Shown here one piece after another: positions 53,671 through 64,000 of a stretch of 64,000 bases of DNA. Numbering within the stretch: position 1 is the stretch's first letter; each line of letters begins with the position of its first letter. The notes under the pieces are model-generated. The model was not told the origin of the DNA. It did no database searches and was given only the letters and a program-made list of their open reading frames with translations. The stretch spans positions 1-64,000 of the forward strand of contig JAJZAK010000010.1 in assembly GCA_021799485.1 (NCBI GenBank). The letters run 5' to 3'. Position numbers and translations under genes: made by a program. Origin of the DNA: a bacterium (GTDB lineage Bacteria; Elusimicrobiota; Elusimicrobia; UBA1565; UBA9628).

Positions 53671-56085
53671 TCAGCCCCCCCTTCTCGTCATAACCTCCGT
53701 CATACCGCGCGCCGAGGCGGCGCCCCAGGCCCACTCCTTGATCTCGGGCATATCATCCCCATGCCGGCGAATGTAGCTCCGGTGGACGGCAAGCTTCCCA
53801 AGAAGCCAGCGCCTGGCCTCGTCCGCCCCCGGCTCCGGCCTCGGAAGTCGCGCGATCACGTCGAGCGCCAAGTGATAGCGATCAATTTCGTTGAGAACCG
53901 CCATGTCAAAAGGCGTGGTGGTCGTCCCCTCTTCCTTATAGCCCCGAACATGCCAATGCTCATGTCCCGCGCGCCGGTAGGTCAGACGGTGGATGAGCCA
54001 GGGATAGCCGTGGTAGGCGAAAATGACCGGCTTATCGGCGCCGAAAAGCTCGTCGAATGCCCCATCCGAGAGGCCATGCGGATGTTCTCCTGGCGGCTGG
54101 AGGGTCATGAGGTCCACGACGTTCACGACGCGGATTTTAAGCCTCGGGAAGCGTTCCTTTAAAATCTCGACGGCCGCCAAGGTTTCAAGTGTCGGCACGT
54201 CCCCCGCGCAGCCCATCACGACGTCTGGTTCCCGTCCGCCGTCCGTCCCCGCCCATTCCCAAGCGCCGATCCCCGCATCGCAGTGCCGAACCGCCTCCTC
54301 CATGCCGAGCCACTGAAGCTCGGGCTGCTTGCCGGCGACGATGACGTTGACGAGATTGCGGCTTCTCAGACACCTGTCCGCCACCGCGAGGAGCGTGTTG
54401 GCATCGGGCGGCAGATAGACGCGCACGACGGAAGCCTTCTTGTTGACGACATGGTCGATGAAGCCCGGGTCCTGGTGGGAAAATCCATTGTGGTCCTGGC
54501 GCCAGACGTGGGAACTCAGAAGCAGGTTGAGCGAGGCGACGGGCTTGCGCCACGGGATCTCGCGCGCGACCTTGAGCCACTTGGCGTGCTGATTAAACAT
54601 GGAGTCCACGATGTGGATGAAGGCTTCATAGCAGGAAAAAAACCCGTGGCGCCCCGTCAAGAGATAGCCCTCGAGCCATCCCTGGCATAGATGCTCGCTC
54701 AACACCTCCATCACGCGGCCTTCGGGCGAAAGATGATCGTCCGTGGGGAGCATCCGATCCATCCAGGCGCGTCCAGTCTCGGCGAAGATCGCGTCGAGGC
54801 GGTTGGAGGCCGTCTCATCCGGTCCGAAGACCCGGAAATGCCGCAATCTCATGTTGAGCTTCATGACGTCGCGCAGGAAAGTCCCCAGGATCCGAGTGGA
54901 CTCGGCGCGCGTCCCCCCGGGCCTCGCGACGGGCACGGCGTAACGGCGGCAATCGGGAAGCTTCAGTTCCCGCAGCAAAAGCCCTCCGTTGGCATGGGGG
55001 TTCAAGCCCATGCGCCGCTCGCCCCTTGGTGCGAGCCTCGATATAGCCGGTCGAATCCGGCCCTTGTCGTCGAAAAGCTCCTCGGTCTTATAGCTTTTAA
55101 GCCATGATTCCAACTGGAAGAGCTGTTCGGCGCTCGACTTGGCGCGCGGAAGCGGCACCTGATGAGCGCGGAAGGTCCCTTCAACGGGATGGCCGTCCAC
55201 CACCTTGGGGCCCGTCCACCCTTTCGGCGTTGAGAAAACGATCATCGGCCAAGTCGGCCGCGCGCGATGCGATCCGTTTCCGGAAATCCTGGCTTTTCGA
55301 TGGATACTCCGGACCTCGGCCACGACCTCATCAAGCGCGCGGGCGAGCTTGCGATGGACGTCGTCGGGGCTCTCCCCCTCCACGAAAACCGGCCGCCAAC
55401 CATATCCGCGCAATAGTTGCGCGAGCTCCCGGCGCGGCAGGCGCGCGAGTACCGTGGGATTCGCGATCTTGTAGCCGTTTAAATGAAGGATCGGCAGGAC
55501 GACGCCGTCGCGGACCGGATTGAGGAATTTGTTGGAATGCCAGGAGGTCGCCAGGGCCCCCGTCTCCGCTTCGCCGTCGCCCACGACGCAGGCGACCCAG
55601 AGATCGGGATTGTCGAAGGCCGCCCCGAAGGCGTGGGCCAGGGAGTACCCCAGCTCGCCGCCCTCGTTGATCGAGCCGGGGGTCTCGGGCGCGGCATGGC
55701 TGGGAATCCCCCCGGGGAAAGAAAACTGAGTGAAGAGCCTCTTTAATCCCTCCTCATCCAGAGAAATGCGGGGATAGATCTCGCTATAGCTTCCCTCGAT
55801 GTAGGTCTGGGCCACGACGGCCGGCCCTCCGTGGCCGGGCCCCGTGATGAAAATCATGTCGAGATCGTATCGGCGGATGATGCGGTTTAAATGCGTGTAG
55901 AGAAAATTCAGGCCCGGCGTCGTCCCCCAATGGCCGAGAAGCCGGGGCTTGACGTGCTCGGGCTTTAGAGGTTCCTTGAGCAGCGGGTTATCCATGAGAA
56001 ATATTTGACCCGCGGACAAATAATTCGCGGCGCGCCAATAAAGGTCCAGTTCGCGCAGTTCCGCCGCCGACAGAGTTCTTTTCAT
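53671..56085 (-). CDS. xfp: Phosphoketolase (xylulose-5-phosphate/fructose-6-phosphate)
   Basis: An 804-residue thiamine-diphosphate enzyme, the family's full length. It splits xylulose 5-phosphate or fructose 6-phosphate with phosphate into acetyl phosphate and an aldose phosphate. Motifs: [72 protein letters not shown] (ThDP site), and [14 protein letters not shown] in the middle domain. ATG at 56085 starts [20 protein letters not shown] as usual. It lacks a good ribosome binding site of its own but overlaps the stop of a 16-codon upstream frame. It heads the operon with LOG, nuclease and ackA. Confidence 0.95.
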
Positions 56086-56132
56086 GCCGGAAGAATTCCC
56101 GCTGAAAGGTGTCGCGTATGCGACTTGTTCAT
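56082..56132 (-). CDS. 16-codon upstream ORF coupled to phosphoketolase
   Basis: ATG at 56132 is preceded by GAGGAG 5 bases upstream and encodes [16 protein letters not shown]. Its TGA (56084-56082) overlaps the phosphoketolase ATG in the arrangement ATGA. The upstream frame has the strong ribosome binding site, while phosphoketolase has none, so ribosomes could reach xfp by termination-reinitiation. No regulatory amino-acid run is visible. It could be simple translational coupling. Confidence 0.5.
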
Positions 56133-56205
56133 GGGTTCTCCTCGTCTTTGTTAACGACGGACTCCTTCCAACGATCTTGTCATCAGCCGTAACGCGCCCT
56201 CGCAC

Positions 56206-56361
56206 TCACCCGCGATCGGCGAGGCATGAGCAGCCGCAGACGCACTTTTTGCGCTCCATACAGCGACAGGAGCGGCAACACTCGCAGACCGCCCATGCCA
56301 CCTTCGCCCGGCCGTTGACTTGCACCCCCGTCTTTCTAATGAACTTCGGACTGTTTTTCAT
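56206..56361 (-). CDS. Nine-cysteine microprotein, copy 1
   Basis: A 51-residue protein, MKNSPKFIRK at its start, with nine cysteines at 26, 28, 29, 32, 34, 40, 42, 44 and 46: CXCCX2CXCX5CXCXCXC. A GGGAGAAA site lies just upstream of ATG 56361. A second protein at 63348-63497 has exactly the same cysteine spacing with different residues in between. The density of CXC pairs suggests metal binding, as in metallothioneins, but I do not recognise a known family. It lies between the pgm and xfp genes, all on the minus strand. It may serve as a metal or redox buffer; that is inference. Confidence 0.75.
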   Translation of the reverse strand: MKNSPKFIRKTGVQVNGRAKVAWAVCECCRSCRCMERKKCVCGCSCLADRG

Positions 56362-56543
56362 AAGTTTCTCCCTTGATCCTCCCGGCTGCCGCCGCGCATG
56401 AAACCTACCGCCTCTTTCCCCAAAAATATTCCCGAACGCTTGCGCGTTTTGAGATGCCGTATATAGGATGCAACGAAACGGCTAGGAAAAAATGCCGGGC
56501 TGTCTTGCGTCGATCAAGGATAAAGGCCGAGTCTTTTTATCCG

Positions 56544-58211
56544 TCAAAGACCGAGCATGTCCCGGGCTTCGTCCTGAACGCGGCGCAGGTGGGCGGCGCC
56601 AAGAAAGCTTTCCGCGTAGAGCTTATAGACGTTCTCCGTGCCGGAAGGACGGATGGCGAACCAACCATTCTCCGCGACGACCTTGAGCCCGCCAATCCCA
56701 GCCCCGTTGCCGGGAGCGCGGGCAAAAGCCCCGAGGATTCTCTCTCCCGCCAAGGTGGTCGCCCGAACTTGCTCGGGGGTTAGCCGCAGAAGCCGGTCCC
56801 TTTGCTCCGTCGTCGCCTCCGTATCCACGCGGACGTAGAGGGGATCGCCAAGTTCTCTGGCTAAGTCCCGATAAATCTGCCCGGGGTCCTTACCGAGCCT
56901 CGCGGTAATCTCGGCCGAAAGCAGGGCCGCGATGATTCCGTCCTTATCCGTGGTCCAGGCGCCGCCGCCACGGTCCAAGAAGGACGCCCCCGCGCTTTCC
57001 TCGCCGCCAAAGCCCAGAGAGCCGTCCAAGAGCCCCGGGACGAACCATTTAAAGCCCACGGGCGTTTCATAAAGCTTGCGGCCCAGCCTTCGGGCGACGC
57101 GGTCGATCATCTGGCTGCTGACGAGAGTCTTTCCGACCGCCGCCTCCGGCCGCCAGGCGGGGCGGTTCTTGAAAAGATAATCGACGGCGACGGCGAGATA
57201 GTGGTTGGACGGCAGGAGCCCCGTGCTTCGGGCGACGATGCCGTGTCGATCATGGTCCGTGTCGCAGGCGAAGGCGATGTCGAAGCGATCCTTGAGGCCG
57301 ATCAGTCGGCGCATCGCATAGGGGGAGGACGGGTCCATGCGGATTTGTCCGTCCCAGTCGAGTGTCATGAAGCGGAAAGTCGGGTCGACAGCCTCGTTGA
57401 CGACATCAAGCTTGAGCCCGTAACGCTCCGCGATGCGCGGCCAGTAGCGGACTCCGGCGCCTCCCAGGGGATCGACCCCGAGATGGAGGCCCGAGCGGGC
57501 GATGGCCTCCATGTCGAGCGCGCGGCCGAGCCCCTCGACATAGGGCGTCATGAAGTCGCATCGATGGGTCGTCGTGGCGAGAAGAGCGCGCTGAAACGGC
57601 ACCCTCTTGACGCCTTTGAGTCCGCTTTCCAAAAATTCGTTCGCCCTTTTTTCGATCCAGTGGGTCGCCTCGTCCTCGGCCGGACCGCCGTGAGGGGGGT
57701 TGTACTTGAACCCCCCGTCCTTGGGGGGGTTATGCGAGGGCGTGACGACGATCCCATCCGCGAGTCCGGAGACTCGGCCGTGGTTGTAAGCCAGAATCGC
57801 GCGCGAGACAGCCGGCGTCGGCGTCCATGCGCCTTTCTCGGCGATCATGAGTTCGATCTCGTTGGCCGCCAGCACCTCGACGGCGCTTTCCATGGCGGGC
57901 TCGGAGAGAACGTGGGTGTCGATTCCCAGGAAGAGAGGCCCGTCGATCTTCTGCTCGCGCCGGTAAAGACAGATGGCTTGGCTGATCGCCAGGATATGCG
58001 CCTCATTAAAGGAAGACGTCAACGAGGAGCCGCGATGGCCCGAGGTGCCGAAACGCACCCTCTGAGATGGCTGCGCGGGGTCCGGACGCCGCTTCCAATA
58101 AGCCTCGGCCAAGCCCGCGACGTCGATCAAGTCGCCGGCCTCGCACGGCTGACCGGCGCGCGGATGTGTTTTTGCCGCCGATTCTTTGTGAGTGCCAGAA
58201 GTTGCTGCCAT
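56544..58211 (-). CDS. pgm: Phosphoglucomutase (alpha-D-glucose phosphate-specific)
   Basis: A 555-residue enzyme interconverting glucose 1-phosphate and glucose 6-phosphate. Motifs: VRFGTSGHRGSSLTSSFNE, the phosphoserine loop VVTPSHNPPKDGGFKYN, metal loop CDTDHDRHG, and the sugar loop FGGEESAGASF. The C-terminal phosphate site RPSGTENVYKLYAESF is present. ATG at 58211 (MAATSG) gives the usual length; frames starting further upstream (58298) lack support. It is divergent from glgB and links glycolysis to glycogen synthesis. Confidence 0.95.
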   Translation of the reverse strand: MAATSGTHKESAAKTHPRAGQPCEAGDLIDVAGLAEAYWKRRPDPAQPSQRVRFGTSGHRGSSLTSSFNEAHILAISQAICLYRREQKIDGPLFLGIDTHVLSEPAMESAVEVLAANEIELMIAEKGAWTPTPAVSRAILAYNHGRVSGLADGIVVTPSHNPPKDGGFKYNPPHGGPAEDEATHWIEKRANEFLESGLKGVKRVPFQRALLATTTHRCDFMTPYVEGLGRALDMEAIARSGLHLGVDPLGGAGVRYWPRIAERYGLKLDVVNEAVDPTFRFMTLDWDGQIRMDPSSPYAMRRLIGLKDRFDIAFACDTDHDRHGIVARSTGLLPSNHYLAVAVDYLFKNRPAWRPEAAVGKTLVSSQMIDRVARRLGRKLYETPVGFKWFVPGLLDGSLGFGGEESAGASFLDRGGGAWTTDKDGIIAALLSAEITARLGKDPGQIYRDLARELGDPLYVRVDTEATTEQRDRLLRLTPEQVRATTLAGERILGAFARAPGNGAGIGGLKVVAENGWFAIRPSGTENVYKLYAESFLGAAHLRRVQDEARDMLGL

Positions 58212-58294
58212 ATTGGATTTATTGGATTTCCACATCCTACGCAACAATTGAACCTCTCCAGGCATTTTTGTTGCGTGTGCCGATGTGATCCAAT
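58212..58294. promoter_or_regulatory. Divergent pgm-glgB control region with repeats
   Basis: An 89-bp gap with two adjacent direct repeats ATTGGATTT (58212-58220, 58221-58229), the inverted pair ACGCAACA (58239-58246) and TGTTGCGT (58269-58276), and ATCCAAT (58288-58294), an inverted copy of the direct-repeat core, just before glgB. On the minus strand TTGTTG and AATAAA could be -35 and -10 for pgm. This suggests a shared operator for both genes. No known regulator motif is recognised. Confidence 0.45.
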
Positions 58295-58300
58295 TCAATC

Positions 58301-60313
58301 ATGGCCCATCTCATTGCCGCGCCACCAGCGCCCAAGAAGCTCTTCAGCGGCGGGTCGACGCTCTTGTCGGATAAAGACCTACATTACTTTAACGAAGGCA
58401 CGCATTTCCAGCTCTACAACAAGCTCGGCGCCCACGTCACCCAGGGTCAAGACGGGGCACGAGGCGTCCATTTCGCCGTCTGGGCCCCTAACGCCCAAGA
58501 AGTCTCCCTTATAGGGGACTTCAACGGCTGGAACCGAGGCCTCCATCGCTTGCGCCCCAGCGGCGCCTCCGGCATTTGGGAGACATTTCTTCCCGGCGTC
58601 GGCCCAGGGGCCAAATATAAATATTTCATCCAATCGCGCCAATGCGGCCATTCGTCCGAAAAGGCCGACCCCTTCGCTTTCTACGCCGAGGTGCCTCCAA
58701 AGTCCGCCTCCGTGGTCTGGGATCTTTCCCATGAGTGGGGCGACGCCGAATGGATGGCCCAAAGGGCCGCGCGCAACGGACTCGGAGCTCCGGTTTCCAT
58801 CTACGAAGTCCACCTCGCCTCTTGGATGAACATGCCCGAGGAAGAAGGCCGATGCCTGACATACCGGGAATTGGCCCTTAAGCTTCCCGAGTACATGACG
58901 CGGATGGGTTTCACTCACGTCGAGTTCCTCCCCGTCATGGAGCATCCCTTCGGCGGCTCCTGGGGCTACCAGACTCTGGGCTACTTCGCCCCGACGAGCC
59001 GTTACGGAACCCCGCAAGACTTCATGCATCTTATTGACGAACTCCACCGCCACGGCATCGGAGTCTTTCTCGATTGGGTCCCGTCTCACTTCGTCACCGA
59101 CGCCCATGGCCTGGGTTATTTCGACGGCACTCACCTCTATGAGCATCGCGACAGGCGCGAGGGCTTTCACCCCGACTGGTCCAGCTATATCTTCAATTAC
59201 GGCCGCCACGAAGTCCGGAGCTTCCTTATATCAAGCGCTCTATTCTGGCTCGACAAATACCATGCTGACGGCCTGCGCGTGGACGCCGTGGCCTCGATGC
59301 TCTACCGGGACTACTCCCGCAAGGAAGGGGAGTGGATCCCCAACAAGCATGGCGGCAGGGAAAATCTCGAGGCGATCCACTTCATCCGCGGGCTCAACGA
59401 GGCGGCCTACCAGTCGCATCCGGGCATCCAGATGATCGCCGAGGAATCGACCTCCTGGGGCGGCGTCTCGCGGCCCACCTGCGTCGGGGGGCTGGGTTTC
59501 GGCTACAAATGGGACATGGGCTGGATGCACGACACCCTCGAGTACATGAAAAAAGACGGCGTCCACCGCAAGTACCACCAAGATCAGCTGACTTTCCGGA
59601 TGCTCTATGCGTGGCACGAGAACTTCATCCTGCCCTTGTCCCATGACGAGGTGACCCACGGCAAGCGTTCGCTCATCACCCAGATGGCGGGGCATGACGA
59701 CTGGCAGAAGTTCGCGAATCTGCGCCTCCTTTTCGCCAACCAATGGGCTCAACCGGGCAAGAAGCTGCTTTTCATGGGGGGGGAATTCGCTCAGCGCGAC
59801 GAGTGGCGCTACGACCACAGCCTCGATTGGCATCTCTTGCAATGGGAGCCCCATCGAGGCGCGCAAAGGCTGATCGCCGATCTCAACCGCCTCTACCGCG
59901 AGACGCCGGCCCTCCACGAACTCGATGCCGATCACTCCGGCTTCGAGTGGATCGACTGCTCCGACTACGCCGCAAGCGTGATCTCCTTCCTGCGCTACGG
60001 ACGCGACCGCAGCCGACCGGTGCTGGTCGCGATCAACGGCACCGCCGTTCCCCGACCAGGCTACCGATTGGGCGTCCCCCAGAAGGGCTTCTGGAGAGAA
60101 ATTTTCAACAGCGACGCCCGCGAATACTGGGGAAGCGGCATGGGCAATCTCGGCGGCATCGAGGCCGAAGCCCGACCCTCTCATGATCGGCCTTATTCCC
60201 TGGATCTGACTCTCCCCCCGCTGGCTGCCGTGTTCTTGACCCCGGCTCCTCTTGAGGATTCCATCGCCTCGGTTCCGCCCGCCGCCGGCTTGTCGGCGGG
60301 CGGGGATACATAA
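58301..60313 (+). CDS. glgB: 1,4-alpha-glucan branching enzyme
   Basis: A 670-residue GH13 enzyme that makes alpha-1,6 branches in glycogen. It has a CBM48 domain (about 45-145; VHFAVWAPNAQEVSLIGDFN) followed by the catalytic barrel with YEVHLASW, the nucleophile region DGLRVDAVASMLYRDYSR, acid/base IAEEST and LSHDEVTHGKRSL. The C-terminal beta domain ends near residue 650. Shorter than E. coli GlgB (no N1 domain), as in many phyla. The ATG at 58301 has no clear ribosome binding site. First gene of a glgB-glgA-GH57 operon. Confidence 0.95.
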   Translation: MAHLIAAPPAPKKLFSGGSTLLSDKDLHYFNEGTHFQLYNKLGAHVTQGQDGARGVHFAVWAPNAQEVSLIGDFNGWNRGLHRLRPSGASGIWETFLPGVGPGAKYKYFIQSRQCGHSSEKADPFAFYAEVPPKSASVVWDLSHEWGDAEWMAQRAARNGLGAPVSIYEVHLASWMNMPEEEGRCLTYRELALKLPEYMTRMGFTHVEFLPVMEHPFGGSWGYQTLGYFAPTSRYGTPQDFMHLIDELHRHGIGVFLDWVPSHFVTDAHGLGYFDGTHLYEHRDRREGFHPDWSSYIFNYGRHEVRSFLISSALFWLDKYHADGLRVDAVASMLYRDYSRKEGEWIPNKHGGRENLEAIHFIRGLNEAAYQSHPGIQMIAEESTSWGGVSRPTCVGGLGFGYKWDMGWMHDTLEYMKKDGVHRKYHQDQLTFRMLYAWHENFILPLSHDEVTHGKRSLITQMAGHDDWQKFANLRLLFANQWAQPGKKLLFMGGEFAQRDEWRYDHSLDWHLLQWEPHRGAQRLIADLNRLYRETPALHELDADHSGFEWIDCSDYAASVISFLRYGRDRSRPVLVAINGTAVPRPGYRLGVPQKGFWREIFNSDAREYWGSGMGNLGGIEAEARPSHDRPYSLDLTLPPLAAVFLTPAPLEDSIASVPPAAGLSAGGDT

Positions 60314-60340
60314 ACCGCGCGCACGACGGCTTAGAACTCC

Positions 60341-61813
60341 ATGTACGCGGTGATGGTGGCTTCCGAGTGCGCGCCGGTCGCGCAAACCGGGGGACTTGGC
60401 GACGTTGTCTTTGGATTGAGCCGGGAGCTTGAGATCCGGGGCAACGCCGTCGAGATCATTCTCCCCAAATACGACCGCATGCGCTATGACCGAATCTGGG
60501 GGCTGACCAAGAGCTTTAACGACCTGTGGGTGCCCTGGTATGGCGGGGCCATCCACTGCAGCGTCTGGTTCGGCTTCGTGGAGGGACGCAAGTGCTTCTT
60601 CATCGAGCCGCACTCCCGAGACAATTTCTTCAGCCGGGGCGCCTATTACGGCATGAACGACGACGCCATGCGCTTTGCTTTTTTCAGCAAGGCGGCCCTC
60701 GAGTTCATGCTCAAGGCCGGCAAACGGCCCGACATTATCCATTGCCATGATTGGCAGACAGGCCTTCTGCCCGTCCTGCTCTTTGAGATCTACAAGTATC
60801 ACGGCATGCCTCACCAGCGCGTTTGCTACACCGTCCACAACTTCAGACATCAGGGCGTCGCCGGCACGGACATCCTCCAGGCTACGGGCTTAAGCCGCCC
60901 TGAGTATTTTCTACACCACGACCGGCTTCGCGACAACGCCAATCGGGGAGCGATCAATTTCATGAAGGGCGGCATCGTCTACTCGAACTTTGTCACGACG
61001 GTCTCCCCCCAGCATGCGTGGGAGGCCCGCTGCACCGACCAGGGCTTCGGCTTGGGCCCTACCCTGAACATCCATTCGGGGAAATTCGCCGGCGTTCTCA
61101 ACGGCCTCGACTACGCCTCCTGGAACCCCGAGATCGACCGGCATCTCCCTGTCCGATACGGCCCGAACAATGTCCAGGGCAAATACCGCGATAAGGAGGC
61201 CCTGCGCCACAGGCTTTGGCTGCGCCAGGATTTCAAGCCCATCATCGCCTACGTCGGCCGTTTGGACGATCAAAAGGGCGTTGACCTCATCCGCCAGTCT
61301 CTTTTCTACGCGCTCGATCATGGCGTCCAGTTCGTCCTTCTGGGGTCGAGTTCGACGCCCGCAATCGAAGAGAGATTTGGGGGTCTCAAGCGCCGCTTCA
61401 ACGACCATCCCGACATCCACCTCGAACTGAGCTTCAACGCCGAGCTGTCCCACCTTATCTACGCGGGCTCTGATATCCTCGTCATGCCGAGCCTCTATGA
61501 GCCCTGCGGCTTGGCGCAGTTGATTGCGCTCAAATACGGGACCATTCCCGTCGTGCGGGCGATCGGGGGCCTTTGCGACACCGTGTTCGACGCGCACCAT
61601 TCCGGCAAGCCGCAGCAAGAACGCAACGGCTTTGTATTCCACCAGACCGACCCCCCGGCCGTCGAATCAGCCTTGCACCGCGCCGTCGGCCTGTGGCATT
61701 CGTACCCGGAGGAATTCCGCGAGCTCATGCTCAACGGCATGCGTCAAGACTACTCCTGGAGCGACGCGGGATCTAAATACCTCGGTATTTATGATTACAT
61801 CCGCCACAAATAA
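60341..61813 (+). CDS. glgA: Glycogen synthase (GT5)
   Basis: A 490-residue glucosyltransferase that extends alpha-1,4-glucan from ADP- or UDP-glucose. Motifs: ASECAPVAQTGGLGDVVFGL, HCHDWQTGLLPVLL, VGRLDDQKGVDLI and PSLYEPCGLAQLIALKYG. The substrate-binding lysine of the KxGGLGDV loop is glutamine here (QTGGLGD), which is unusual. The other catalytic residues (arginine and lysine of VGRLDDQKG, glutamate of YEPCG) are present. The stop codon overlaps an ATG that opens a 5-codon frame leading into the next gene. Confidence 0.93.
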   Translation: MYAVMVASECAPVAQTGGLGDVVFGLSRELEIRGNAVEIILPKYDRMRYDRIWGLTKSFNDLWVPWYGGAIHCSVWFGFVEGRKCFFIEPHSRDNFFSRGAYYGMNDDAMRFAFFSKAALEFMLKAGKRPDIIHCHDWQTGLLPVLLFEIYKYHGMPHQRVCYTVHNFRHQGVAGTDILQATGLSRPEYFLHHDRLRDNANRGAINFMKGGIVYSNFVTTVSPQHAWEARCTDQGFGLGPTLNIHSGKFAGVLNGLDYASWNPEIDRHLPVRYGPNNVQGKYRDKEALRHRLWLRQDFKPIIAYVGRLDDQKGVDLIRQSLFYALDHGVQFVLLGSSSTPAIEERFGGLKRRFNDHPDIHLELSFNAELSHLIYAGSDILVMPSLYEPCGLAQLIALKYGTIPVVRAIGGLCDTVFDAHHSGKPQQERNGFVFHQTDPPAVESALHRAVGLWHSYPEEFRELMLNGMRQDYSWSDAGSKYLGIYDYIRHK

Positions 61814-61830
61814 TGGAGGTTCCGCCTTAA
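61813..61830 (+). other. Five-codon minicistron bridging glgA and the GH57 gene
   Basis: ATG GAG GTT CCG CCT TAA starts within the glgA stop (TAATG) and ends in a TAATG overlap with the GH57 start codon at 61830. The GGAGG inside it also serves as a ribosome binding site for GH57 at 10-11 nt. It may be accidental, but it resembles the minicistrons ahead of acnA and xfp. Confidence 0.3.
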
Positions 61831-63293
61831 TGAGCCAACCGTCCGCCGCCTTCGAAGAGTTCCCGCCGATCTGCGGTTCGGAGGATCAGATTGAAGGCGC
61901 CCTGCGAGAAAGCGCCGGAAACACCGTCTTTCTCCGGGAGAGCGGCGTCGATTTCGGTCGCATCAAGAGCGCGGCCGCCATCGCCCTCCATATGCACCAG
62001 CCCCTGATTCCGGCCGGCGGCGGCGACCTGCGCACGGCGGCGATCATCAGCAATTTAAAATACATGCTGGACAACCAAGGGATCGGCGACAACCACAACG
62101 CCCCTGCCTTCATTCAGTGCTACAAGCGCATGGGAGACTTCATCGTGCGTCTGCTCGACGAGGGCCGGCAGCCGCGCGTGATGCTGGAATATTCCGGCAC
62201 TCTATTCCATGGCCTGCGCCAAATGGGCCTCAACGACGTGTTTGACAGCCTTAAAAAAGCGACCTGCGATCCGGGCTGCCGTCGGGCGGTGGAGTGGCTG
62301 GGCGCGCCCTGGGGACACGCGGTCGCGCCGTCGACGCCCGTTCTGGACTACCGCCTTCATGTCAAGTCGTGGCAACAGCATTTCGCCGCCATTTTCGGCA
62401 TCGAGGCCCTTCAACGCGTCCGGGGGTTTTCTCCTTCGGAAATGGCCCTTCCCAATCATCCGGATGTGGCTTACGAATTCGTCAAAACCCTCAAGGACAG
62501 CGGATTCCAATGGGTTTTAGTGCAGGAACACACCGTCGAGCGGCCGGAAGACGGGCATGGGCCGAGGCACAAGCATCTGCCCCATCGGCTGGTCTGCCGG
62601 AATTCTCGAGGCGAGAGCGCGAGCATCATCGCGGTGATCAAGACCCAGGGAAGCGACACCAAACTCGTCGGGCAAATGCAGCCCTATTACGAGGCCAAGG
62701 GCCTCCAACGCTTGGAGTTCGCCGGGAGGACGGCGCCGCCGCTCGTGACCCAGATCGCCGACGGCGAAAACGGCGGCGTGATGATGAACGAGTTCCCACC
62801 GAAATATTTCGAGGCGGTTCGCGAGGCCTCGGGTTCCGAAACGCCGCTCCTGAACGCGACCGAATACTTGGAGCATCTCTTCGCCTCCGGCGTCAGGGAG
62901 GAGGATCTGCCGGCGCTTCAGCCTCTCATGCAAAAGCGAATCTGGGACCGATTCCGGTCCGGGGATGGCCCGGAAAAGCTTGAGAACACGATTGAGCGGC
63001 TCAAGAAAGAGGATTCTCGCTTCCACATGGAGGGCGGCAGCTGGACGAACAACATCTCCTGGGTCCGCGGCTACGAGAACATGCTGGGACCGATGGAGAA
63101 GGTAAGCTCTCTTTTCTACGAAAAAGTGGTCAAACCAGACGTCTCCAGCAGGGAACCGCGCTATCGTAACGCGCTCTACCATCTGCTGATGAGCCAGACG
63201 AGTTGCTATAGGTATTGGGGACAGGGCGCGTGGGTCGATTACGGCAATGAGATCTGCCGGCGCGCCACGGACATCCTCACCCACGATTTTTAA
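61830..63293 (+). CDS. Glycoside hydrolase family 57 enzyme
   Basis: A 487-residue cytoplasmic enzyme of the GH57 type (alpha-amylase, amylopullulanase or branching activities). The first conserved region is AIALHMHQPLIPAGGG (HQP); further family elements are VMLEYSGTLFHGLRQMG, GFSPSEMALPNHPDVAYEF and GFQWVLVQEHTVE. The last 90 residues are less conserved. Behind glgB and glgA it likely acts on glycogen. ATG at 61830 follows GGAGG and gives a sensible N-terminus; the frame is open further upstream inside glgA but without family similarity. Activity cannot be told from sequence. Confidence 0.85.
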   Translation: MSQPSAAFEEFPPICGSEDQIEGALRESAGNTVFLRESGVDFGRIKSAAAIALHMHQPLIPAGGGDLRTAAIISNLKYMLDNQGIGDNHNAPAFIQCYKRMGDFIVRLLDEGRQPRVMLEYSGTLFHGLRQMGLNDVFDSLKKATCDPGCRRAVEWLGAPWGHAVAPSTPVLDYRLHVKSWQQHFAAIFGIEALQRVRGFSPSEMALPNHPDVAYEFVKTLKDSGFQWVLVQEHTVERPEDGHGPRHKHLPHRLVCRNSRGESASIIAVIKTQGSDTKLVGQMQPYYEAKGLQRLEFAGRTAPPLVTQIADGENGGVMMNEFPPKYFEAVREASGSETPLLNATEYLEHLFASGVREEDLPALQPLMQKRIWDRFRSGDGPEKLENTIERLKKEDSRFHMEGGSWTNNISWVRGYENMLGPMEKVSSLFYEKVVKPDVSSREPRYRNALYHLLMSQTSCYRYWGQGAWVDYGNEICRRATDILTHDF

Positions 63294-63347
63294 AGACCCC
63301 TTCCAGGCGATTTGATCGACTTTGGAACTCGAGCGCTCAAGCCATCT

Positions 63348-63497
63348 TCAGTTGAAACGCCCGCAAACGCATCCGCAGGAGCATAAGTCGCTAAAATCAC
63401 ACGCGCATGACTCGCAGCAAACGCAATTACTTTCCGTTTTTGAAAAGTTTCGAAGTTCTCGCTCGAATTTTTTCGAGCTCCCCGGCCTCTTCTTCAT
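63348..63497 (-). CDS. Nine-cysteine microprotein, copy 2
   Basis: A 49-residue protein starting MKKRPGSSKKFERELRNF, with nine cysteines at 25, 27, 28, 31, 33, 39, 41, 43 and 45, the same CXCCX2CXCX5CXCXCXC pattern as the protein at 56206-56361. A perfect AAGGAGG lies 6 bases upstream of ATG 63497, which makes it a real gene. It is convergent with the GH57 gene (54 bases between the stops). Lysine-rich N-terminus, Cys-rich C-terminus. Metal binding is likely; exact function unknown. Its codon usage is more AT-rich than that of its neighbours. Confidence 0.8.
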   Translation of the reverse strand: MKKRPGSSKKFERELRNFSKTESNCVCCESCACDFSDLCSCGCVCGRFN

Positions 63498-63508
63498 CGC
63501 TCTCCTCC

Positions 63509-63766
63509 TTGGTTCGGCCGGACGGCACCCGGCCTTGGATCATCCCAACGCCCAGCAAGCAACAGAGCGGCCGCTACCTCGAAACGCCAGGCTCCTGGAG
63601 CGCGGTCGTACCCGAAACCGGCGCCGAAGACGCCGCCTACGGGCTCGATGTCGACGACTTCGTCCTTCTGAGGGAATTCTTTGTCACGCCCAGCCGCGTG
63701 CGCCTGGAGTTTAAGCTGCGTCTTGTGAAGGGAAAGTCCGGTCGGATCGTCGGGACGCGGCGCTAG
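63509..63766 (+). CDS. Hypothetical protein, start uncertain
   Basis: The frame from about 63509 to the TAG at 63766 (85 residues from a TTG start; 119 from ATG at 63407) has GC-rich third positions, so it is probably coding: GSWSAVVPETGAEDAAYGLD and LLREFFVTPSRVRLEFKLRL. The first part of the longer version is antisense to the microprotein gene and AT-rich, so it is probably not translated. No domain recognised. It overlaps the convergent last gene by 4 bp. Confidence 0.4.
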   Translation: MVRPDGTRPWIIPTPSKQQSGRYLETPGSWSAVVPETGAEDAAYGLDVDDFVLLREFFVTPSRVRLEFKLRLVKGKSGRIVGTRR

Positions 63767-64000
63767 AGACTTCCGAAAAAGCCGGTCATGGACGCGCCGA
63801 TACCGCCCAAATCCCGGCCCAAGGACTGGAAATCGCCGGCCAGGGCCTGACCCGTCGCCTCCGCGCCGCCCACCAGGAACATCGTGGGCGACGCGATAGT
63901 CAGGAGAATCTGCTCCAGCAGACTCTCATTGCCTATGACGCCATGATAGGCGATGGAGTCCGAGCCGAACTGTGTCTTCCCGCCCACTTCGCCGTAGGCG
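63763..64000 (-). CDS. Hypothetical protein, C-terminal part (runs off window)
   Basis: An open frame on the minus strand that enters from the right edge and stops at 63763. The visible 78 residues read GGKTQFGSDSIAYHGVIGN, then ESLLEQILLTIASPTMFLVG and end GIGASMTGFFGSL. The third codon positions are GC-rich as in real genes. Mildly hydrophobic stretches are present but no domain is recognised; the N-terminus is outside the window. Confidence 0.6.
   Translation of the reverse strand, partial: AYGEVGGKTQFGSDSIAYHGVIGNESLLEQILLTIASPTMFLVGGAEATGQALAGDFQSLGRDLGGIGASMTGFFGSL

Follow-up and report, generated by a model that had tools for sequence, protein, structure and literature searches.

A candidate metallothionein-like family of cysteine-rich microproteins and a shared promoter element in an Elusimicrobiota genus

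Metallothioneins bind metal ions through clustered cysteines, and their nine-Cys beta-domain holds three divalent ions. Few metallothionein-like families are known from bacteria, and proteins this short escape gene callers. The described bacterial examples include mycobacterial MymT and cyanobacterial SmtA (Pfam Metallothio_Pro), which also uses His and has a zinc-finger-like fold. Other short, Cys-rich peptides, the MNIO-modified bufferins and methanobactin, have been proposed to handle copper. The phylum Elusimicrobiota has been reported from acid mine drainage (PMC8357290), and the literature search returned no relevant papers on metallothioneins in this phylum. The locus described here lies in a 64-kb stretch of DNA (the window) from an Elusimicrobiota genome of 2.31 Mb (G000), which was compared with two congeneric genomes, G001 and G002.

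A family of cysteine-rich microproteins

A sequence-only reading of the window had proposed an unrecognised 51-residue open reading frame with nine Cys at 56206-56361, preceded by a ribosome binding site and matched in its exact Cys spacing by a second microprotein nearby. Each of these points is borne out. The first gene, B1 (56206..56361, minus strand), encodes MKNSPKFIRKTGVQVNGRAKVAWAVCECCRSCRCMERKKCVCGCSCLADRG, a protein of 51 aa in which nine Cys are spaced CXCCX2CXCX5CXCXCXC at residues 26-46. The second, A1 (63348..63497, minus), encodes MKKRPGSSKKFERELRNFSKTESNCVCCESCACDFSDLCSCGCVCGRFN, a protein of 49 aa with nine Cys in the same spacing; in a scan of the window that covered 426 open frames 40-90 aa long, A1 far exceeds all others in Cys fraction. 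Shine-Dalgarno-like sequences, AAGGGAG for B1 (56368..56374, minus) and AGGAGG for A1 (63504..63509, minus), lie a few bases upstream of the ATG in both cases. The B1 open reading frame is a real gene.

Read as DNA, the nine-Cys pattern has four exact matches in the 2.31-Mb G000 genome, compared with none for a reversed control pattern and a chance expectation of ~1e-9 (six-frame Cys frequency, 1.8%). A profile search adds a fifth paralogue in which Gly replaces the ninth Cys, so the pattern as first proposed holds for four copies and fails in the fifth, which has eight Cys only. The DNA pattern and profile searches found two copies in G002 and no copy in G001. The seven members fall into two subtypes: A1, A2, B1, B2 and B3 in G000, and A3 and B4 in G002. 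A2 and B2 are adjacent genes on contig C55 of G000 (locus L021:4945-5321), B3 lies on the same contig (C55:42763), and A3 and B4 are found on contigs C38 and C201 of G002, respectively. B1 and its congeneric copy B4 are 59% identical. Because the fifth paralogue carries Gly in place of the ninth Cys, the core that is invariant in all seven sequences, C-x-C-C-x-S-C-x-C-x5-C-x-C-G-C, comprises eight Cys, one Ser and one Gly.

Selection on the cysteines, which the sequence-only reading had argued for, is upheld by these comparisons. Between the A1 and B1 cores, 10 of the 12 non-Cys residues differ, yet every one of the nine Cys is retained, the codons of two having changed silently. Within subtypes, dN is 0.27-0.48 and dS is at least 1.4 or saturated; the wide margin by which dS exceeds dN shows purifying selection on the reading frame. 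That reading had named a lack of homologues and frame disruption in close relatives as evidence against its proposal. Homologues were found (five copies in G000 and two in G002), the frames of all seven members are intact, and G001 is without the gene.

The family appears to be as unrecognised as first suggested, with no significant match in Pfam-A or NCBIfam, where no metallothionein model matched at E values up to 10. Outside the genus, neither the DNA pattern nor the profile gave a convincing match in class-wide (235 genomes) and phylum-wide (334-340 genomes) searches. Three weak extra-genus profile matches among 334 phylum genomes (E 0.002-0.01) were rejected, their number being that predicted by chance, and poly-Cys matches in three further genomes (G009, G013 and G310) were rejected as repeats. 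The exact nine-Cys DNA pattern occurs in at least 118 stretches in 84,980 species genomes and in 71 in viral contigs. Inspection of the translations led to rejection of nearly all of these as low-complexity Cys, CTG-type or off-frame stretches, and the only comparable small open reading frame among the matches listed from the species genomes is in G002 (JAJYFI010000068.1). Plasmid and phage collections yielded no family match. Together, the searches point to a family of two subtypes restricted to one genus.

All members share a two-part layout. A mostly basic N-terminal half of 24-29 residues precedes the core, in which nine Cys (eight in one member) fall within 21 residues as CXC, CC and CXXC motifs, with few aromatic residues and little His. 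The Cys are dense in this core only and amount to ~18% of the whole microprotein. The N-terminal halves are rich in Lys and Arg and, judged by eye in the seven-sequence alignment, have no hydrophobic stretch; B1 as a whole has 12 K/R versus 3 D/E. Because this half is basic and non-hydrophobic, the protein is probably cytosolic, with its clustered thiols reduced and open to soft metals. The least probable of the readings considered is a disulfide-rich secreted peptide of Bowman-Birk-like or defensin-like type. CCxSCxC weakly resembles Bowman-Birk loops (E 0.3), but the best Bowman-Birk fragment in a PDB profile search (E 0.32 over 18 residues) was rejected as non-significant, no signal sequence precedes the basic, cytosolic-type N-terminus, and six of the seven members have an odd number of Cys.

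The stop and start codons of A2 and B2 overlap (TGATG), which suggests translational coupling of an A-type with a B-type protein. Adjacent, overlapping genes with a short leader-plus-Cys-core layout could also encode a pair of RiPP precursors whose Cys are modified, as in the copper-binding bufferins or methanobactin. This is improbable because the genus has no MNIO enzyme (PF05114; none in three genomes, with control genomes positive). Moreover, no radical-SAM or YcaO enzyme is among the neighbours named, and a hydrophobic signal sequence is absent by eye.

Gene neighbourhoods and a shared promoter element

B1 is flanked upstream by the phosphoglucomutase (pgm) gene (56544-58298, minus) and downstream by the phosphoketolase (XFP) gene (53671..56085, minus). 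A microprotein gene directly precedes phosphoketolase in two species, as B1 in G000 and as A3, of the other subtype, in G002, where the gap is only ~25 nt. In G001, where the phosphoketolase is 90% identical, the pgm-phosphoketolase gap of ~140 bp holds no microprotein, which marks a clean gain or loss. The remaining members have other surroundings. A1 is a solitary gene in convergent orientation to a GH57 gene, and no gene follows it on its strand. A2-B2 follows a nucleotidyltransferase gene and precedes isochorismatase-like and NAPRT-like genes, B3 lies between patatin-like and carboxymuconolactone-decarboxylase-family genes, and the gene downstream of B4 matches no Pfam family. No metal transporter or metal regulator was recognised among the neighbours examined, and an Rfam search of 55900-63700 gave no match.

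Two further observations concern these regions. A1 lies just downstream of a papain-like (C1) peptidase gene (window 63763-63987 and beyond; L022:8764-9285) that seems shortened relative to a 565-aa copy in G001 (L217:2677-4374). Contig C55 (loci L021, L228 and L276) carries genes for Hsp20, pyruvate dehydrogenase-like subunits, acyl-CoA synthetase and nitroreductase as well as isochorismatase-like, NAPRT-like and DNA-ligase-associated genes and three microproteins, and from this content looks like a stress or low-oxygen island.

The position of B1 and A3 directly upstream of phosphoketolase might indicate a Cys-rich leader peptide, functionless in itself, whose Cys codons would sense cysteine supply as they are translated and so control the downstream gene by attenuation. 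This is very improbable, as A1 has no downstream gene on its strand, an attenuator would not fit into the ~25 nt after A3, and a terminator search on the B1 strand found none after B1. In addition, A2 and B2 overlap at their stop and start codons, non-Cys residues and the B-type N-terminus are conserved, and G001 retains the promoter element described below and phosphoketolase without the microprotein open reading frame.

Reading upstream of family members revealed a common element, GGCCGYTTYGTTGC, which is new in this analysis. A matrix trained only on non-microprotein sites was scored at all positions of the 64-kb window. The best site is GGCCGCTCTGTTGC of A1 (63559..63572, minus; 61 nt before the start), the second-best is AGCCGTTTCGTTGC of B1 (56470..56483, minus; 108 nt before the start) and the third-best is GGCATTTTTGTTGC (58261..58274, plus) of a 1,4-alpha-glucan branching enzyme-like gene (58301..60313, plus; ATG at 58301), a putative member of the same regulon. 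Matrix scores are good for A3, the A2-B2 operon and B3 and weak for B4. The ranking is not fully independent and its strength is partly built in, because it was upstream of the microproteins that the pattern was first spotted.

Allowing up to one mismatch, GGCCGYTTYGTTGC has 28 sites in the G000 genome, compared with 7 for a reversed control. Intergenic sites precede genes for phosphoketolase (in G001 and G002), branching enzyme, alpha-glucan phosphorylase, an acyl-CoA synthetase-like protein, nitroreductase, a phosphoribosyltransferase, Hsp20, YceI, OsmC and a response regulator; most other one-mismatch sites lie inside open frames and are probably due to chance. Distances to the start codon range from 14 to about 70 nt, with B1 at 108 nt. 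The element is conserved between orthologues of two genomes at the phosphoketolase, phosphoribosyltransferase, acyl-CoA synthetase-like and response regulator genes. The independent evidence for the promoter consists of this conservation and of the types of gene that carry the element. A perfect 24-bp palindrome, GCAACGAAGCGGCCGCTTCGTTGC (L021:10492-10515, contig C55), is formed by two back-to-back elements between the acyl-CoA synthetase-like and nitroreductase genes, 16 and 17 nt from their starts.

A link of the microprotein to carbohydrate metabolism had been proposed from the sequence alone. The phosphoketolase neighbour in two species and the element before glycogen genes agree with it, but the proposal is too narrow, as stress genes bear the element too. 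Because genes for Hsp20, OsmC, YceI, nitroreductase and other proteins share the element, a stress or starvation regulon fits better. With OsmC, nitroreductase and YceI in this regulon, and with Crp/Fnr-type regulator-like and NnrS-like genes upstream in the window (recognised by eye), the microproteins could act as a thiol-based sink for redox stress, NO or peroxide, metal binding being incidental. This explanation is distinctly unlikely and ranks second among the rivals, after the structural-zinc regulator discussed below; the fixed CXC/CC spacing exceeds the needs of a sink.

The element has the GG-N10-GC geometry of sigma-54 promoters with TTGC at -12, and no sigma-70-type promoter was found at B1. 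The published sigma-54 consensus is tGGcacg / tTGCt (PMC4641369). The -24 half of the element reads NGGCCG, not TGGCAC, and has no T before GG. An EcfG-type reading (GGAAC-N16-17-CGTT) was rejected, the spacing from GCAAC to CGTT varying from 13 to 26. The Sigma54_DBD model finds one protein above cut-off in each of the three genomes, every time with a variant C-terminal box. In G000, this is a divergent protein of ~357 aa (Sigma54_DBD E 4.6e-10; G000:C51:3855-4055, minus; L287 and L293, also L285 and L286) that no other sigma-54 domain model matches. Its C-terminal box is a variant, SRRTVNTVRHEV, of the RpoN box, which reads ARRTVAKYRE, and its gene adjoins a YceI gene that bears the promoter element. 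We infer that this divergent factor may read the GGCCGYTTYGTTGC promoter.

Metal buffering and competing explanations

We lean towards a metal-buffering or metal-parking, metallothionein-like microprotein of the stress or starvation regulon. A cytosolic, basic Cys-cluster microprotein would be made from promoters with sigma-54-like -24/-12 spacing. The 21-residue core would wrap soft or borderline ions such as Cu(I) or Zn(II) in a thiolate cluster to which up to nine sulfurs contribute; by analogy with the metallothionein beta-domain, nine thiolates could hold three divalent ions or form a small Cu(I) cluster. The microprotein would then buffer or park metal, or serve as a thiol reserve, when stress turns the cell to phosphoketolase/acetate and glycogen metabolism, and, more speculatively, its basic N-terminal half may contact nucleic acid or the membrane. 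To call the family metallothioneins is a hypothesis and not a statement of membership, as no model matches, and we infer metal binding by the same analogy. Several findings count against metal buffering. No family model matches, the whole-protein Cys content of ~18% is below that of classical metallothioneins, none of the neighbours examined looks metal-related, G001 does without the family and the B4 promoter is weak. The AlphaFold prediction, made from the seven-row alignment, counts against it too (pLDDT 59, pTM 0.28); it is uninformative as a model and was left unused.

The main rival, itself unlikely, is that the Cys hold structural Zn, for example as a Zn3Cys9-type knot, in a small protein that regulates the stress regulon by binding nucleic acid or other proteins, with the basic half as the contact surface. 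The N-terminal half is basic in most members (in B1, the 12 K/R and 3 D/E noted above), and its MK[ND]SPKFxRK start is conserved in three B members from two species. A plain buffer would not need Cys spacing this strict, together with an invariant Ser and Gly, and the microproteins belong to a regulon. This half is nevertheless poorly conserved between subtypes A and B, and PDB profile and family-model searches found no similarity to known zinc-binding domains; the AlphaFold run (pLDDT 59) gave no structure in its favour.

A bolder reading, possible but doubtful, goes beyond metallothioneins altogether. In it, this uncultured lineage would have evolved a class of its own, paired (A/B) nine-thiolate microproteins unrelated to known metallothioneins. 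A divergent sigma-54-type factor whose -24 specificity has been rewritten would switch them on, so that a metal-cluster protein is produced alongside phosphoketolase, glycogen enzymes and stress chaperones in a single starvation programme.

The finding is real and, given a family with two subtypes, the evidence of selection, the promoter and the regulon, somewhat better supported than when first proposed. The promoter, the phosphoketolase operon partner in two species and the natural absence in a third are testable handles on a microprotein role outside metal detoxification. The promoter element also brings to light what appears to be a stress regulon in these uncultured bacteria, together with a divergent sigma-54-like factor.

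Comparison with known systems

The promoters resemble those of sigma-54 (RpoN) in their GG-N10-GC spacing and TTGC -12 element. Unlike in the RpoN system, the -24 element is GGCCG, and the factor matches the DNA-binding-domain model only and has a variant C-terminus.

Among the described peptides, bufferins and methanobactin are likewise short and Cys-rich, but the genus has no MNIO enzyme in its three genomes and the microproteins have no signal sequence. Like SmtA and MymT, the microproteins are tiny, Cys-rich and easily missed by gene callers; they differ from both in having no sequence match and in a promoter common to stress and carbon genes in place of metal-responsive control. Compared with the vertebrate beta-domain and other Cys-cluster metallothioneins, the CXCCX2CXCX5CXCXCXC spacing is found in no metallothionein model matched, the N-terminal half is basic and Cys make up ~18% of the protein. 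The likeness lies in a short protein with nine Cys in a compact core of CXC and CXXC motifs, with few aromatic residues and little His.
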